DNA of 39,794 nt from Acidobacteriota bacterium (GTDB lineage: Bacteria > Acidobacteriota > Terriglobia > Acidiferrales > UBA7541), in the NCBI GenBank assembly GCA_003224235.1, contig QHYU01000053.1:1-39794 (forward strand), read 5' to 3'. Below the pieces are notes generated by a model, which saw only the letters and a program-made list of their open reading frames with translations, had not been told where the DNA came from and did no database searches. Position numbers and translations under genes: made by a program. The first letter of the stretch is position 1. Each line of letters begins with the position of its first letter. Shown one piece after another: positions 1 to 9,732 of this stretch.

Positions 1-1965
1 AGCGCCAAGCAGTCCCACTTCTTCTTCGGTAGACCAGAGGAACGTGACGTCCCGGCCCGGCAAGTCCGGGCCGAGCGCCCACGCTGCGGCCACCAACGCC
101 GCGCAACCCACGCGGTCGTCAAAGCTGCGGCCGTTTGCGCGCGTGCCAAACAAGTGCCGGTATTTCTTCGGGACGGTGATTGGGTCGCCCACCTTGACGC
201 TAAGTTGCTCGACTTCGGCAGCGCTGCGCGCGCCAACATCTGCCCGGGCGAGAGAGATTTCACCGGTCTGCGGGCCGCGTGGCCACTCAAAGCCGGGCCG
301 GTCCCAGCCGAGTGGGAGTTCCAGCACGCCGGGCCGCGGGCCGCTTGCCGTGTGAACCAGAACGGCGTGGCCGAGAAAGAACTCGCTGATGGCGCCGCCA
401 CGCGATTGCAACTCGAGAATACCGTCCACCGAAATCGAACGCACGACGTAGCCGATTTCGTCCATGTGTGCGACGAACAGGATCCGCGCAGGCATCTTCC
501 CAGGCGGTGGTTCCGAAGGGACAGCTTTTGAGGCCAACCTCAGGATCAGATTGCCGGCAGCATCGGTTTCAGGTTTGGCCCAGGGCGGCAGCAGGCGCGT
601 GATCACTTCGCGCACCATACCTTCGTGGCCGCTCACCCCATAGGTCTCAACCAGTGTCTTGAGGATTTCGGTCGCGGGTGGCCCGGTTTGGAGTGGGAGC
701 CCGGTAAAGTTACGCGAGACGTGACGAGGAGGCTGGATCCCCGGCGCCACCTGTGTGGATGCGGTACTCGCGGCCTCGACGCTCGTCGATCCTTGAGCGT
801 AAAGCTCGAGGAGGGCGACAAGATTCTGGAGATCCCCGTAGGCAACGAACTCTGCTGGAGTGGTGGGCCATCTGACCGGAATGCCGAGATGGGCAAAGCG
901 CTGTGGCATTCCCGATGACTCAGGAGCGCTCGGTGCGTAACGCGGGCGCGAAAGCGGCGCGGAAAAATCCGCCGCGAAAGGGATTTTGTTTGCTTCCGCG
1001 AGTTGCTTGAGCTCCTGAACCAGTCCGGTAAGGGTAGCTTCCGGATCTGCAGTGCCGAGCGAAACACCGCTTCCGGGGATGCCTTGCGGCAGGCGTGGCA
1101 ACCCGGGCACCGCGGCAACTCGGCCTGCTGCTGCGCCTGTTGCCAGCGCAACGGAAACCCGGCGCGGCAGCATCCGCCCAACGAAAATCGTCTCGTCGGG
1201 TTTTATTTGCTGCAGCAGCTGGTCGAGCCCGCGCCCGTCGGCCCACTGCTGGGTGACAAACGCAACCGTTAGCCTGCCGCGCAGCTTTGCCGGGTCGATC
1301 CGCCTCAGCAGTTCCACCAACGCCGCGCAGCCGAAGCGGTCACCTACCGCCGGAGACGTTATTCGGCCGAAGCCCATCGCGTAGGGCTTGCGATCGAGCG
1401 CGATGGGGTCGAGCAAATCCACCCCGGCCTGATGCACCTCAGCGGCGGAGCTTGCACCGATATCGATGTAGATCTCATCGGGATGCGCGCCGCGCGGGAC
1501 GTTCTGCCTACCCGGCTGGAGGTGCGTGGAAAGCCCAGCCACCACGCCGGGAACCCATTTGCGCTTGCGCGTGTGTATCACGACGGGCTGGGCAGCGTGC
1601 AGTAGGTCGAAAAACGGGTGCGGTGCCGTCTGCGGCAAGCGCTGCACGCGGAGGTAGCCGTCGTCGGTAATGCCGCTGACCACGTAGCCGGGCTCGTCCA
1701 TTGGCGCGACGATCAGCCGGTGCGGTCCCGAAGTTTCGCGACTCCCCAGCGTGACGTAGAGATTGCCCATGTTGTCGCCCTGCGGCGAAAGTTTTCCCAT
1801 CTGCGCGCGAATCTCCGCGGCCAGCGTCTGCTCGTAGCCGGGTACGGCGGGGGTTTCGGCAAATCTCGCGAGATCCTGGGACAAAGATTGGGCGGCAACC
1901 GGCAGACTGAGCAGAAAGCAAAAAATCGGAAATAGAAAACTGAAGATGGGCCGGAGATGCTTCAT
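1..1965 (-). CDS. Secreted tandem M42-family peptidase, partial (runs off left edge)
   Basis: The reading frame is open from an ATG at 1965 to base 1, giving 655 residues without a stop, so the C-terminus lies outside the window. Residues 1-25 form a signal peptide (MKHLRP, a Phe/Leu core, then VAAQS). Two M42 aminopeptidase-like domains follow. The first (about 30-385) keeps the family layout but has lost key residues: APMDEPG (about 87) where AHMDE is expected, VTQQW (about 236) where the catalytic Glu-Glu is expected, and TTPAEF where the C-terminal His-x-Pro segment is expected. The second domain, from about 425, is canonical: AHMDEIGY (about 503), DDRVGC (about 617) and STEEEVGLLGA at the window edge. 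M42 enzymes are usually single domains of about 350 residues that trim N-terminal amino acids from peptides using two metal ions. I infer an active C-terminal domain and an inactive N-terminal copy with a structural or regulatory role. Confidence 0.88.
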   Translation of the reverse strand, partial: MKHLRPIFSFLFPIFCFLLSLPVAAQSLSQDLARFAETPAVPGYEQTLAAEIRAQMGKLSPQGDNMGNLYVTLGSRETSGPHRLIVAPMDEPGYVVSGITDDGYLRVQRLPQTAPHPFFDLLHAAQPVVIHTRKRKWVPGVVAGLSTHLQPGRQNVPRGAHPDEIYIDIGASSAAEVHQAGVDLLDPIALDRKPYAMGFGRITSPAVGDRFGCAALVELLRRIDPAKLRGRLTVAFVTQQWADGRGLDQLLQQIKPDETIFVGRMLPRRVSVALATGAAAGRVAAVPGLPRLPQGIPGSGVSLGTADPEATLTGLVQELKQLAEANKIPFAADFSAPLSRPRYAPSAPESSGMPQRFAHLGIPVRWPTTPAEFVAYGDLQNLVALLELYAQGSTSVEAASTASTQVAPGIQPPRHVSRNFTGLPLQTGPPATEILKTLVETYGVSGHEGMVREVITRLLPPWAKPETDAAGNLILRLASKAVPSEPPPGKMPARILFVAHMDEIGYVVRSISVDGILELQSRGGAISEFFLGHAVLVHTASGPRPGVLELPLGWDRPGFEWPRGPQTGEISLARADVGARSAAEVEQLSVKVGDPITVPKKYRHLFGTRANGRSFDDRVGCAALVAAAWALGPDLPGRDVTFLWSTEEEVGLLGA

Positions 1966-5129: not shown

Positions 5130-6791
5130 TTAGCGCGCGAGATGCGACGTGAGGACTTCACGCTGGTCGCCGGCAAGGTGATCACAGCGCTCGAGCGCGA
5201 CGACATAAACCCACCCGGCAATGGCGCTCAAACCGAGGAAAAGTCCCGCGGCCAGCCACATTCCTCCGAACCTGCGAGTGACAAGCAGAATCGTCCCCAC
5301 CAAACCGAAGAGAGCAATTTGCACGAGCAGGCCGATGAGCATGGTCATCCCGGCCGCGCGCTGTCTGTGCAATGCACCGAACTCGAGGCGGCGCGGGTAA
5401 CATAGCGAAAGCAAATTTCCGGTCGTAAACTGCACGAGCATGGCAAGAAGTAGCGCGGCGAGTGTGGCAGTGACCGTGGCCGCCCCTGGCGATCCAAGGA
5501 GAAGACTCAATAGCAGCCAGACCAGCGCTGTCTCCCCCGCAACGATCAGGCCGAGGGTCAGATTCTTGGCCAGCAACACGTCGCGGAACCGCACCGGAGC
5601 AAGGAAGAGCAACTGGATGCCGCGACCCTCGTAAGCAAATGCATTGTTTCCCAGTTGCGACAGGAGCAGAAACATGTAGGCAAGGGCTGAGGGAAACATC
5701 AGCTCAGGCGAGCGGGCGAAAAGGTCGGGGCGCCCTTGGGGTCTGCTCCAGAAGACAGCGAAAAACCCAATCAGCATCGGCGCTAGCGCCAGGTTCATCA
5801 GCAGGACGCTATTGCGACGGATATAGCGAAGCTCTTTTTCGAGCAACGCTGCCACAGGGGCGCGCAGGAAAGAGGAGCTAAAAGACGCAAAAGATGTCGA
5901 GGAGCTGACCGAACAATGAGCGGCCGGGGCGGAGGCGGGAGCCTGGGACTCCCCGAGGTCTTCGCCGAGATACTGCGCGCGGAGCCTGTGCCGCAGGAAT
6001 AGGCCAAAGACCAGGCCATAGGCGGCCACCAGTGTAGCGCAGCTCAGAGCTTCTGCAGCGTGGCCGCGTGCCGCGCTTGCCAGTGCTCGGCCTACCAGGC
6101 CCGGTGGGAGGAAGCCCGCGATCGGCGGCAGCTTGAGCGCCACTGGCGCGACGCGCCGGCTCCAGCTCTCGACGAACGCCCCCGAAAGCTGAAAGCCGAG
6201 GATGACGAGCATGAGGAGCACCCACACCGCTTCGCGGGTGCGACGCCGGGCCAGCAGCCGCTCGACCCAGGTAAAGATCATGCGGCTCAGAAGCAGGTTC
6301 ATCGCGGCAAACAAGGCAAAGATCAGCAGTGTCCAAGGCAACAGGTCCGGCCGGGCCAGCGAGATCCCCACGGCAATGCAAACCAGCCAGAACAGCGCGG
6401 CCACCGCGACGGGGTCGAACAGGCCGTAGGCCAGACTGAGCAAGAAGAATACGGAGAAGCGCAAGGGGAAACGCAGCAGGTTGCGGAAATCGAAGCTGGC
6501 AGTGGAGGTGGCGAGCAGCACCGGCAGGAAGTGCCAAGCGAAGAAGATGCCCCACAGCAACAGGACGAGCAGCCGGAGCTTGCTCTCGGCCACGATGTAG
6601 TAGGCGCCCGCGGCGAATGCCAAGCCGATGCCGGCGACAGCGAATCCGCTCAGCGCGCTGACCAGAGTGAGCGCGAGGAGATCGAGCTTGCCACTAGTTG
6701 TGCGCAGTGAGTTGCGAAATAGCCGCCACCGCAGCCCGGCAATTAGCGTCACCTGCTGGGTGAATCCCGCGGAGAGGGCTACCTCAGCCAC
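5130..6791 (-). CDS. ABC-2 type transporter permease
   Basis: This 553-residue membrane protein has roughly a dozen hydrophobic segments. Examples lie after LDLLALTLVSALSGFAVAGI, around LLLWGIFFAWHFLPVLLA, and in the C-terminal half from LLMNLALAPMLIGFFAVFW onward. It starts at a GTG (6791) that overlaps the last 13 bases of the ATPase gene, with GAGGA just upstream, so translation is coupled. It resembles the large permeases of ABC exporters with no identified substrate that pair with a separate CcmA-like ATPase. The soluble stretch in the middle (APASAPAAHCSVSSSTSFAS) is a low-complexity linker between two membrane halves, as though two half-permeases were joined. The substrate cannot be read from the sequence. 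Confidence 0.85.
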   Translation of the reverse strand: MAEVALSAGFTQQVTLIAGLRWRLFRNSLRTTSGKLDLLALTLVSALSGFAVAGIGLAFAAGAYYIVAESKLRLLVLLLWGIFFAWHFLPVLLATSTASFDFRNLLRFPLRFSVFFLLSLAYGLFDPVAVAALFWLVCIAVGISLARPDLLPWTLLIFALFAAMNLLLSRMIFTWVERLLARRRTREAVWVLLMLVILGFQLSGAFVESWSRRVAPVALKLPPIAGFLPPGLVGRALASAARGHAAEALSCATLVAAYGLVFGLFLRHRLRAQYLGEDLGESQAPASAPAAHCSVSSSTSFASFSSSFLRAPVAALLEKELRYIRRNSVLLMNLALAPMLIGFFAVFWSRPQGRPDLFARSPELMFPSALAYMFLLLSQLGNNAFAYEGRGIQLLFLAPVRFRDVLLAKNLTLGLIVAGETALVWLLLSLLLGSPGAATVTATLAALLLAMLVQFTTGNLLSLCYPRRLEFGALHRQRAAGMTMLIGLLVQIALFGLVGTILLVTRRFGGMWLAAGLFLGLSAIAGWVYVVALERCDHLAGDQREVLTSHLAR

Positions 6792-7612
6792 GAGAGTTCC
6801 TCATCGGCCCGCCGGAGGGAAGCCTCCTGGCCAACGATGGTGAGAAAGATCTGTTCGAGCGTGAGTCTTTCTCCCGGTGTCGCGGGAGAAAACCCAACTC
6901 CGTGTGATCCGTCGGCGCTGGCGGAAGAGGCCACTCCGGCGCGGAGCTCCTCAAGCGAGCCCTGGGCCACCAGCCGGCCCTGGTGGATGATGGCCACGTG
7001 GCTGCACAGCCGCTCAACGATCTCCAGCACGTGCGAAGTGAGGAAAATGGTGACGCCGCGCGAAATCATGCGCGTGAGCATGGCCTTGAGCGTGCCCGCG
7101 GCAATGGCGTCCACACCCTCGAACGGCTCGTCGAGAAAGAGAATTCTCGGGCCATGAATGACGGCGGCGGCCAGCGCCAGCTTCTTCCGCATCCCGTGGG
7201 AGTAGTCGGCGATGAGCGTTTTCGGGCGGTCGGTAAGCTGCATGAAGTCGAGCAGCTCGGCGGTGCGCTGCGCTGCGGTCGAGCGGTCCAGCCCATACAT
7301 CCTGCCGGCAAAGTTCAGATACTCCGCTCCAGTAAGGCGTTCGAACAGCGCTAGGCCTTCGGGGACCACGCCGATCTGGCGCTTCACTTCGATCGGATGC
7401 TCTTCGAGATCGAGTCCCAGCAAGCGAACGCGGCCGCTGCTGGGTGCCAGCAGGCCTGTGAGCATCTTGATGGTTGTGGACTTGCCTGCGCCGTTGGGTC
7501 CCAGAAAGCCGAAGAATTGTCCGGCGCCCACCGTGAGATCGATCCGGTTGACAGCCACCAGTTCGCCGAAGCGGCGGGTCAGGTTCTCGGTGACAACCGC
7601 CGGCTGGGTCAT
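6779..7612 (-). CDS. ABC transporter ATP-binding protein
   Basis: The 277-residue protein has all ABC ATPase motifs: Walker A GPNGAGKST (residues 38-46), Q-loop region GVVPEGLALFERLTG, signature variant YSHGMRKKL near 136, Walker B ILFLDEPFEGVD near 157, and the switch histidine in TSHVLE near 192. The YSHGM form of the signature is common in ATPases that pair with ABC-2 exporters (CcmA/DrrA-like). The last 50 residues are a variable tail. The ATG at 7612 has GGGAG six bases upstream. The gene precedes and overlaps its permease, forming a two-gene exporter operon that powers transport across the inner membrane. Confidence 0.95.
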   Translation of the reverse strand: MTQPAVVTENLTRRFGELVAVNRIDLTVGAGQFFGFLGPNGAGKSTTIKMLTGLLAPSSGRVRLLGLDLEEHPIEVKRQIGVVPEGLALFERLTGAEYLNFAGRMYGLDRSTAAQRTAELLDFMQLTDRPKTLIADYSHGMRKKLALAAAVIHGPRILFLDEPFEGVDAIAAGTLKAMLTRMISRGVTIFLTSHVLEIVERLCSHVAIIHQGRLVAQGSLEELRAGVASSASADGSHGVGFSPATPGERLTLEQIFLTIVGQEASLRRADEELSWLR

Positions 7613-7732
7613 TGTTGCTCCCTGGGATTCGACTCCGAATCTAGCATAGTAGAGGTTCCCTTAGCGGGACTAGCAGCTAGCGCGACATCTTGAAAGGCAA
7701 GAAGAGGCCGCTGGGCAGGGCAAAGCCGACGC

Positions 7733-9574
7733 CTAAGAGGGTTCCATCGAGGACGACGGGGCCATCGAGTCTGCCGCGATTCCTTCTTTCGCCGATGCGG
7801 CGTCGCGCGGCGGAAACAGCAACAGGACTGCGGGAAATTGGATGCGGAAAGTGGCGCCGCCTTCGGGCCGGTTGAAACAGGTGATCTGCCCGCCGTGCTC
7901 CTGAACCAGACCGTAGCAGATGCTCAGGCCAAGGCCGGTTCCCTTGCCAACCGGCTTGGTGGTGTAGAAGGGATCGAACACCAGGTGCGGTTCCTTGATG
8001 CCGGGCCCCGTATCGGAAAACTCGATGACCACGTTGGCCCGCTCGCGCAGCGTCCGCACGTTGAGCACGCCGCCGCCGATTTCTTCCATGGCGTCAACGG
8101 CGTTACTGATGATGTTGAAGAAGACCTGCAACAACTGGTTCGAGTCTCCGCGCACACCCGGCAGAACCGGTTCGGTCCGCAGCTCGATGGTGATTTTTCT
8201 CCCGCGTAGGGCTAGCTGGCGGAGCTGGATGGCGCTGGAAACCACGGCGTTGACATCCAGTGGCTTACGCTCCGGGGGAACCTGCCGGGCGAAACTGAGC
8301 AGATTAGTGACCAGTGTTTTGGTCCGGCGCGCCTGGTCGCGGATCTTTGTAGCGATGGTGCGCGGTTTCTCTCCCAATGAGCCGTCGTCGATCAGCAGAT
8401 CGGAATAGCCGAGGATGGCGGTGAGCGGATTATTGATTTCGTGGGCGGCTCCCGCTGCGAGCTGCCCGAGCGAGGCCAGCTTTTCTGCTTGCACGAACTG
8501 TGTCTGCAAGCGCTGAAGATTCTCGATCGATTCCTGTGAGGCGCGCAACAGCCGCAGGCGATCCCGATCCACCAAGTGCAGCCGCAGGAAGACCAGGGAG
8601 GTCAGTGGCACCATCGCCCCGAGCGTCACTTGCAGGCGAAACTGGCGCACCGCGGTCGGCTCCTCGCTGGCGAATACCGACCAAGCCGCCAGCAGCGGCA
8701 GCGAAAGCACCGCGGCCATCGCCAGCCGCGCCGCCCACACTCCGTCGTTTTGCCGGTTCTCCGCCACCGCCGGCGTTTCCTCCGAAGGCTTCACGGACTC
8801 CCCTTCTTCCGCCCGGCAGAGCCGGTACGCCAGGATGCCGGCGGTCCCGAACCAGACAAACGAAGCCACGAGGGCGATATCGTAGGAACTCCCGGTGTAA
8901 TAGACCCGCCGGTCAATCCCCACATTGATGGCCAGAGAGCTTGTGGTGTAACAACACGCTGCGCCGAACAGATTGGCATAGATCACTCGCCAGCGGCCCG
9001 AAGTACGCAGCCAGTACGCTCCGAGTCCGGTGAGGAGCACCATATTTTCCGCGATGTTGAGCAGATTGTAGTTCTGCCCGTAAAGCGCGACGTTGGCCAA
9101 TACGTATCGCCAGGGAATGACCACGAACAGGTAAAGATAGACCCACCAGAGCGAAAGCAGCGAGAAATCCAGATAACCGAAGCGCAGGCCGGGCTCGGGT
9201 TGTCGCTTGTGCGGCTCCAGGGCAAGCGCGGCTATCATCGGGACCGTATGGAGAAAGAAGATGAAGTCGCCGGTGAAGGGATTGGGGACAGGTTGATGCA
9301 GGTAAATCTCGAAGTAGGTCCACAGGAGCTGCGCGACCATCCACAGCGTACAGCCGAGCGCCATCAGCATCCAGAAGGAATTTCTGCGCCAGTTGGACGA
9401 GCCCGCGTTCAGCAGCAGGCCGGCATTGGCAAACAACGGCACCACGCATTGCGCCAGGTCGCCGTAGGTGGTCAGCCCCGGGCCCGGGCGAAGCAGCAGA
9501 GAGACCCCGGCATAGCTACCAACAAACAGAATCCAGGCAGCCAGAATCCACCACGTGGAGAGAGAAGGGCGCAT
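7733..9574 (-). CDS. Membrane-anchored sensor histidine kinase
   Basis: About 613 residues. The N-terminal 300 residues contain eight or more hydrophobic segments, starting with TWWILAAWILFVGSYAGVSL, and no recognised periplasmic sensor domain. A final TM segment near RLAMAAVLSLPLLAAWSVFA leads into a coiled stretch (LLRASQESIENLQRLQTQF) and a HisKA domain with the phospho-acceptor in AAHEINNPLTAILG (His near 376). The HATPase domain follows: N-box NQLLQVFFNIISNAVDAM near 486, G1 DTGPGIKEP near 520 and GKGTGLGLSICYGLV near 545. This is the NtrB/ZraS-like class that usually partners a sigma-54 response regulator, but none is adjacent. The ATG at 9574 is preferred; an in-frame TTG at 9613 would add 13 residues. 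Confidence 0.93.
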   Translation of the reverse strand: MRPSLSTWWILAAWILFVGSYAGVSLLLRPGPGLTTYGDLAQCVVPLFANAGLLLNAGSSNWRRNSFWMLMALGCTLWMVAQLLWTYFEIYLHQPVPNPFTGDFIFFLHTVPMIAALALEPHKRQPEPGLRFGYLDFSLLSLWWVYLYLFVVIPWRYVLANVALYGQNYNLLNIAENMVLLTGLGAYWLRTSGRWRVIYANLFGAACCYTTSSLAINVGIDRRVYYTGSSYDIALVASFVWFGTAGILAYRLCRAEEGESVKPSEETPAVAENRQNDGVWAARLAMAAVLSLPLLAAWSVFASEEPTAVRQFRLQVTLGAMVPLTSLVFLRLHLVDRDRLRLLRASQESIENLQRLQTQFVQAEKLASLGQLAAGAAHEINNPLTAILGYSDLLIDDGSLGEKPRTIATKIRDQARRTKTLVTNLLSFARQVPPERKPLDVNAVVSSAIQLRQLALRGRKITIELRTEPVLPGVRGDSNQLLQVFFNIISNAVDAMEEIGGGVLNVRTLRERANVVIEFSDTGPGIKEPHLVFDPFYTTKPVGKGTGLGLSICYGLVQEHGGQITCFNRPEGGATFRIQFPAVLLLFPPRDAASAKEGIAADSMAPSSSMEPS

Positions 9575-9732
9575 GAAAGACCAAAAGAGTAATTCTAGCT
9601 TGACTCTAACCAAGCCAGTTGCCGGAGTCGGCTCGAGGAACGAAAAGATTACCAGCGCGGTGGGTGATGGGGCCGCCCGTGTCTCTTCTTAACCGTCTGT
9701 GGAATTTGGCGGCCACGCAGGGCCCCTGGGGA

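Follow-up and report, generated by a model that had tools for sequence, protein, structure and literature searches.

A dead and an intact M42 peptidase half, fused or encoded side by side as secreted proteins, may share a single active center

The window, that is, the whole 39,794-nucleotide stretch of Acidobacteriota DNA that was analyzed, begins inside a gene. A single open frame on the minus strand runs from an ATG at position 1965 to the first base of the window, where the edge cuts it after 655 aa (Table 1). A Pfam search places PF05343 in two M42 stretches of this frame (E 5.5e-64), and a whole-genome search returns two separate M42 matches, at 964-1767 (E 9.1e-31) for the first domain, D1, and at 1-489 (E 1.9e-30) for the second, D2. 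An earlier, sequence-only reading of this DNA had proposed two M42 domains in one frame, and this is borne out by the double Pfam match and by the predicted models of both halves, which match the PhTET1 fold. The NCBIfam search gave no M42 equivalog or named subfamily above cut-off. M42 aminopeptidases are normally single-domain, cytosolic enzymes that form a dodecameric tetrahedral assembly. The window protein starts with MKHLRPIFSFLFPIFCFLLSLPVAA, judged by eye to be a typical Sec signal peptide, and the proposal that it is secreted agrees both with this and with the signal-like segment found in most of its fused relatives.

Table 1. Features of the M42 gene at the left edge of the window
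Feature	Position	Strand	Basis or remark
Fused secreted M42 pair, D1-D2	1..1965	minus	655 aa visible, 3' end past contig edge
Signal peptide, residues 1-25	1891..1965	minus	By eye from sequence
D1, M42-fold domain with dead metal site, residues 26-392	790..1890	minus	PF05343 match and AlphaFold model
P88 replacing the metal-ligand His (APMDEPG), D1	1702..1704	minus	Sequence/profile alignment
D1 dimerization-domain loop region	1456..1548	minus	Sequence/profile alignment
H148 of S-x-H-L, retained loop His, D1	1522..1524	minus	TET2 H123/DNPEP H170 equivalent by motif and profile column
GDR replacing DDR, bridging Asp lost (G208), D1	1336..1344	minus	Sequence/profile alignment
QQW replacing the Glu-Glu pair (Q240/W241), D1	1243..1251	minus	Sequence/profile alignment
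Low-complexity linker, about 41 residues	667..789	minus	Sequence
D2, M42 domain with intact site, cut at contig edge	1..666	minus	PF05343 match, site motifs
HMDE motif, D2	457..468	minus	Sequence/profile alignment
D2 loop region, without loop His (GVLELPLGWDRPGFEWPRGP...)	232..330	minus	Sequence/profile column
DDR motif, D2	112..120	minus	Sequence/profile alignment
EEE (Glu-Glu pair), D2	19..27	minus	Sequence/profile alignment

The window is contig C2 of a genome in 237 contigs, and the end of the gene beyond the left edge was obtained from another contig of the same genome, C53, whose last 620 bases match the first 620 of the window end to end at 97.4% identity. The C53 frame runs on through FAVDTF and RYSHS, which carry the Asp and last His ligands of D2, to a stop; the full gene would then comprise about 790 codons (655 plus the remainder on C53), and the break between the two contigs looks like strain variation that has split the assembly. 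Because C53 supplies the missing end of D2 and overlaps the window end to end over 620 bp, the window gene is real. Its product is a real, conserved variant of a known family.

Three genes near the M42 gene, at 5130-9613 of the window, encode a sensor histidine kinase, an ABC ATPase, and a 553-aa product for which Pfam gives no match. Counterparts of all three, the last being a large membrane protein, stand upstream of the pair in 9 of 36 loci (for example L034, L040-L046, and L048), and the ATPase and membrane protein only in three more. The neighborhood was considered as a guide to the substrate and rejected, since all such loci belong to the window's own lineage and the neighbor set therefore does not define the system; a functional link of the M42 pair with the kinase and ABC genes is possible and bound to that lineage. 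In two Gemmatimonadota loci (L064, 7937-9514; L079, 8174-9712), the gene after the pair resembles purH by eye.

How much of the M42 active site does each half retain? In the window protein, the first domain is catalytically dead by sequence, as had been proposed: P88, G208, Q240/W241, G263, and T368 occupy site positions, with G263 at an Asp ligand and T368, in a Thr/Pro stretch, at the last His. The second domain had been described as having all motifs intact. HMDE, DDR, and EEE are indeed present in the window, and the Asp and last His are seen only on C53, so the two-metal ligand set of the window D2 is complete only via that contig; the description fails for the histidine of the dimerization-domain loop, which D2 lacks. 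Among 89 non-redundant pairs of relatives, assembled as set out below, no D1 has kept all six site residues (the ligands H, D, E, D/E, and H, plus the catalytic Glu), none of the six being left in 60, one in 19, two in 6, three in 3, and four in 1. All six are present in 83 of the 89 D2, and the other 6 are cut sequences with no substitution. All columns rest on an M42 profile from 27 domains with an intact HxDE motif, 6 of which are D2 halves.

The predicted structures leave both halves within the M42 fold. L034, the closest complete relative, is 72% identical to the window protein, and its tandem model has a pLDDT of 90.2 and a pTM of 0.88 over 741 residues, a value that suggests a confident mutual placement of the halves, predicted to form one rigid unit; residues 373-380 of the linker fall below a pLDDT of 50. 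The VIA listing for the tandem model concerns D2 only, and D1 was folded and searched apart. The L034 D2 matches PhTET1 (2wyr_A) with a VIA Z of 42.0 and an rmsd of 2.1 over 325 residues, and the AlphaFold model of the window D1 (pTM 0.84) matches PhTET1 (2wyr_B) with a Z of 36.5 and an rmsd of 2.8 over 318 residues. In the fold alignment, DNPEP is 12-13% identical to D1. The D1 loop has a pLDDT of about 82 in the L034 tandem (alignment A1) versus 53 in the window D1 folded alone (A2); as the sequences and alignments differ, this is a hint only that the loop may be better ordered in the tandem.

Relatives were collected from 61 genomes (that of the window and 60 close to it), from a further scan of one genome per species (61 loci) together with 297 genomes of Acidobacteriota, and, outside the phylum, from 150 genomes of Gemmatimonadota (the phylum of L064) and 198 of Planctomycetota (the phylum of L066). 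The dead or live state was read in 12 fetched Gemmatimonadota loci and 6 fetched Planctomycetota loci, and three of the latter are dead-plus-live pairs (L128, which is L066, L142, and L143), the other three being ordinary lone M42s. Left out of the counts were the window copies L002, L003, and L095, two short frames (the second frame of L053 and L081 12424), exact duplicate domains, pairs more than 97% alike in D2, and uncovered loops. The combination of a dead and a live M42 recurs in Acidobacteriota, Gemmatimonadota, and Planctomycetota, either fused or as two adjacent secreted genes. The sequence-only reading had called for a search for the two-domain architecture in other genomes, and 57 of the 89 pairs (including the window) are fused in one frame; the remaining 32 are adjacent genes. 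The dead half comes first in all pairs but one. In L108 (240-2511), the sole exception, a split pair has the live gene upstream of the dead one. By hydropathy, a signal-like segment (a hydrophobic segment plus an AxA-like site) precedes D1 in 53-54 of the 60 fused proteins scored and precedes D2 in 1 of 59, and in split pairs it is found on both genes, in 27 of 31 scored D1 and 27 of 33 scored D2.

One could suppose that D1 is a pseudogene in decay, or that an assembly error produced the fusion, given that the window stops inside the gene where a second contig overlaps it at 97.4% identity, and that the halves lie in separate frames in 32 of the 89 pairs. We find this scarcely credible. An assembly error joining two genes, which the sequence-only reading had named as its own refutation, is contradicted by the recurrence of the fusion across relatives; the pairs, 57 fused and 32 split, come from three phyla, and the split genes each carry their own signal-like segment. 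Moreover, dN/dS in ten pairs of relatives is 0.08-0.23 for D1 and 0.06-0.18 for D2. An eleventh comparison, L001 (the continuation of the window) with the window itself over 206 codons of D2, gives 0.35 for sequences that have diverged very little. Purifying selection on D1 is similar in strength to that on D2.

What might explain why a domain without an active site has been maintained under such selection? The residue that separates the two halves most sharply is the histidine of the dimerization-domain loop. In M42 and M18 enzymes, a loop histidine (H170 in DNPEP and, probably, H123 in TET2) acts at the active site of the adjacent subunit. In human DNPEP, an M18 enzyme, His170 of the opposing subunit binds the ligand and completes the site, the H170F replacement abolishes activity, and the residue is noted as conserved in M42 (PMC3472314). 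In the TET peptidases, the loop histidine lies from about 4 to more than 20 Å from the neighboring site across structures (PMC8993905). The evidence that it acts in trans comes from mutants and modeling. The Ser-x-His-Leu motif of the D1 loop corresponds by profile column to the Pro-Pro-His of canonical M42s. The loop histidine is present in 87 of 87 covered D1, compared with 2 of 87 covered D2 (two uncovered on each side of the 89 pairs). Before the 97% redundancy cut, it was found in all 92 dead domains with the loop covered and in 2 of the 88 intact partners so covered, these earlier counts taking one D1, that of L133, which is outside the 89-pair set, as two pieces. The motif [SA]xH[LIF] occurs in all 87 D1, and even the looser x.H[LIFMV] occurs in none of the 89 D2, where the column is mostly Gly (33) or Tyr (23). 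Only 8 columns are invariant in D1: that of the loop histidine and seven others, each occupied by Gly, Asp, or Glu. The site is gone from D1 and the histidine kept, and D2 has done the reverse, so each half has lost what the loss in the other made useless. Evolution appears, from these aligned columns, to have kept the loop histidine in an otherwise dead partner and to have dropped it from the live one.

Histidines elsewhere in the wider stretch are found in 35 of the 89 D2. A crude motif had placed a loop histidine in D2 of L013, L040, L042, L045, and L053, and these candidates were rejected, the aligned column being Gly in each. L113 (1324-3564) and L114 (427-2631) have the only two D2 with a histidine at the loop column (EPRFGHL and EPRLGHL), yet their D1 are dead; this histidine may be a reversion, a retention, or chance. 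Intact M42 domains without an M42 neighbor in the locus have the loop histidine in 26 of 29 cases. Two of the three that lack it, L001 and probably L059, are in fact D2 halves separated from their partner by the end of a contig. The third is L091, from Thermotogaceae, and the loop histidine is therefore not absolutely required in every M42. L080 (5758-8063) provides a useful contrast: it is an ordinary tandem of two adjacent M42 genes, both intact and both with the loop histidine (2/2).

A quick tree of 117 rows, built after masking of the site and loop columns, places D1 in a single clade (SH-aLRT 99) and D2 in another (93), and the D1 and D2 distances are strongly correlated (Mantel r 0.884; best of 999 permutations 0.148). 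Fusion state changes at least 5 times on the D2 rows and at least 8 times on the D1 rows, and the pair has therefore been fused or split repeatedly. The histidine state needs only 3 changes on the tree, so the contrast between D1 and D2 is inherited from few events, and the argument for function is the maintenance of that contrast and not the number of its origins. L111 (1489-3099) is a lone M42 with a signal-like segment, an intact site, and the loop histidine, and it is sister to D2 alone, not to D1 plus D2 (97 for the group). It would fit an ordinary secreted enzyme as the ancestor and may represent the state that preceded the division of labor. Its position would be compatible with more than one order of the duplication and the losses.

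In the light of this complementary loss, we propose, with a probability a little under 0.8, that D1 and D2 make up an obligate pseudo-dimer, M42 in fold, whose two halves share one composite active center. D2 would provide the two-metal site and the catalytic Glu. D1, its own site dead, would pack on D2 as the partner in the usual M42 dimer geometry, with its loop inserted such that H148 reaches the D2 site, much as the loop histidine of DNPEP, and probably that of TET2, acts on an identical neighboring subunit. D1 would then be needed for activity, and the D2 loop, useful only to the dead D1 site, would have decayed. The unit would work outside the cytosol, probably in the periplasm, and aminopeptidase activity on peptides would be the default guess from the family. 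It is unlikely that D1 is a structural or folding partner only, stabilizing D2 or blocking dodecamer assembly with a loop histidine that is itself structural. Such a role would suit a domain that keeps its fold and is under purifying selection despite the absent site, and TET is described as active as a dimer at strongly reduced efficiency (PMC8993905), lower assemblies thus being viable; it leaves unexplained, however, why D2 and not D1 lost the loop histidine while all covered D1 kept it, and why that histidine is among just 8 invariant D1 columns.

The sequence-only reading had suggested that the dead copy alters the assembly geometry or gates the substrate. Nothing in the data points to an altered geometry, and neither idea is required to account for the data. 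The complementary loss falls at exactly the residue that M42 and M18 subunits donate to their dimer partner, an indication that the dimer has kept its ordinary geometry, with the dead half as a catalytic partner. We give still less credence to the proposal, also from that reading, that D1 works outside the cytosol through its altered pocket to bind substrate, regulate, or gate. The substituted pocket differs little among members of the family to which the window protein belongs, with P, G, Q, W, and G at five former site positions, but over the whole D1 set the pocket residues vary widely, the commonest residue reaching 20-64% at the ligand columns, and the loop histidine does not vary.

If the pseudo-dimer with a composite center is extended to all of these proteins, it is fairly probable that they represent a secreted and widespread subfamily of M42 whose homo-oligomeric exopeptidase ancestor became an obligate two-half enzyme. 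On this reading, the gene was duplicated, one copy lost the active site and the other the loop histidine that acts in trans, and the pair was then repeatedly fused or split, leaving one composite center per pseudo-dimer; M42 would have arrived, independently, at the design seen in M16 alpha/beta and pitrilysin. If true, complementary degeneration would here have made an obligate heteromer out of a homomer, a clear case of that change and one that converges with M16, and the trans mechanism could be tested with one point mutant. The pairs could be viewed as a natural separation-of-function experiment on the debated trans role of the TET loop histidine. It would be misleading to annotate D1 as an aminopeptidase or to assay D2 by itself. 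No comparable M42 case was found in a literature search over titles and the starts of abstracts, in a collection with few subscription papers, and the arrangement may be new; M42 is not mentioned in the main text of a pseudo-metallopeptidase review (PMC11266112).

Ordinary M42s (PhTET1/2/3, TmPep1050, and PepA; PF05343) share the fold of both halves, the metal and catalytic set of D2, and the loop histidine of D1. Unlike in these enzymes, where the site and the loop histidine reside in one subunit, here they are split over two paralogues that are secreted and often fused. The M18 enzyme DNPEP offers a documented loop swap in which the histidine of the opposing subunit is essential (PMC3472314), although it is a homo-oligomer of equal subunits and belongs to a different family. 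The nearest parallel is M16, which includes homodimers, heterodimers (alpha/beta) in which one half is dead, and fused forms; there the site is completed by an Arg/Tyr pair that lies outside the zinc domain (PMC12731061, PMC11266112). In both cases dead and live homologous halves occur as separate genes or fused, the M16 examples being MPP alpha/beta, SPH2681/SPH2682, and IDE/pitrilysin. Both halves of the window protein are M42 by sequence and predicted fold, and have neither the M16 fold nor its HXXEH zinc motif. The M16 enzymes are clam-shell endopeptidases with an unrelated fold and one zinc, and are an analogue of the M42 pairs rather than a relative.
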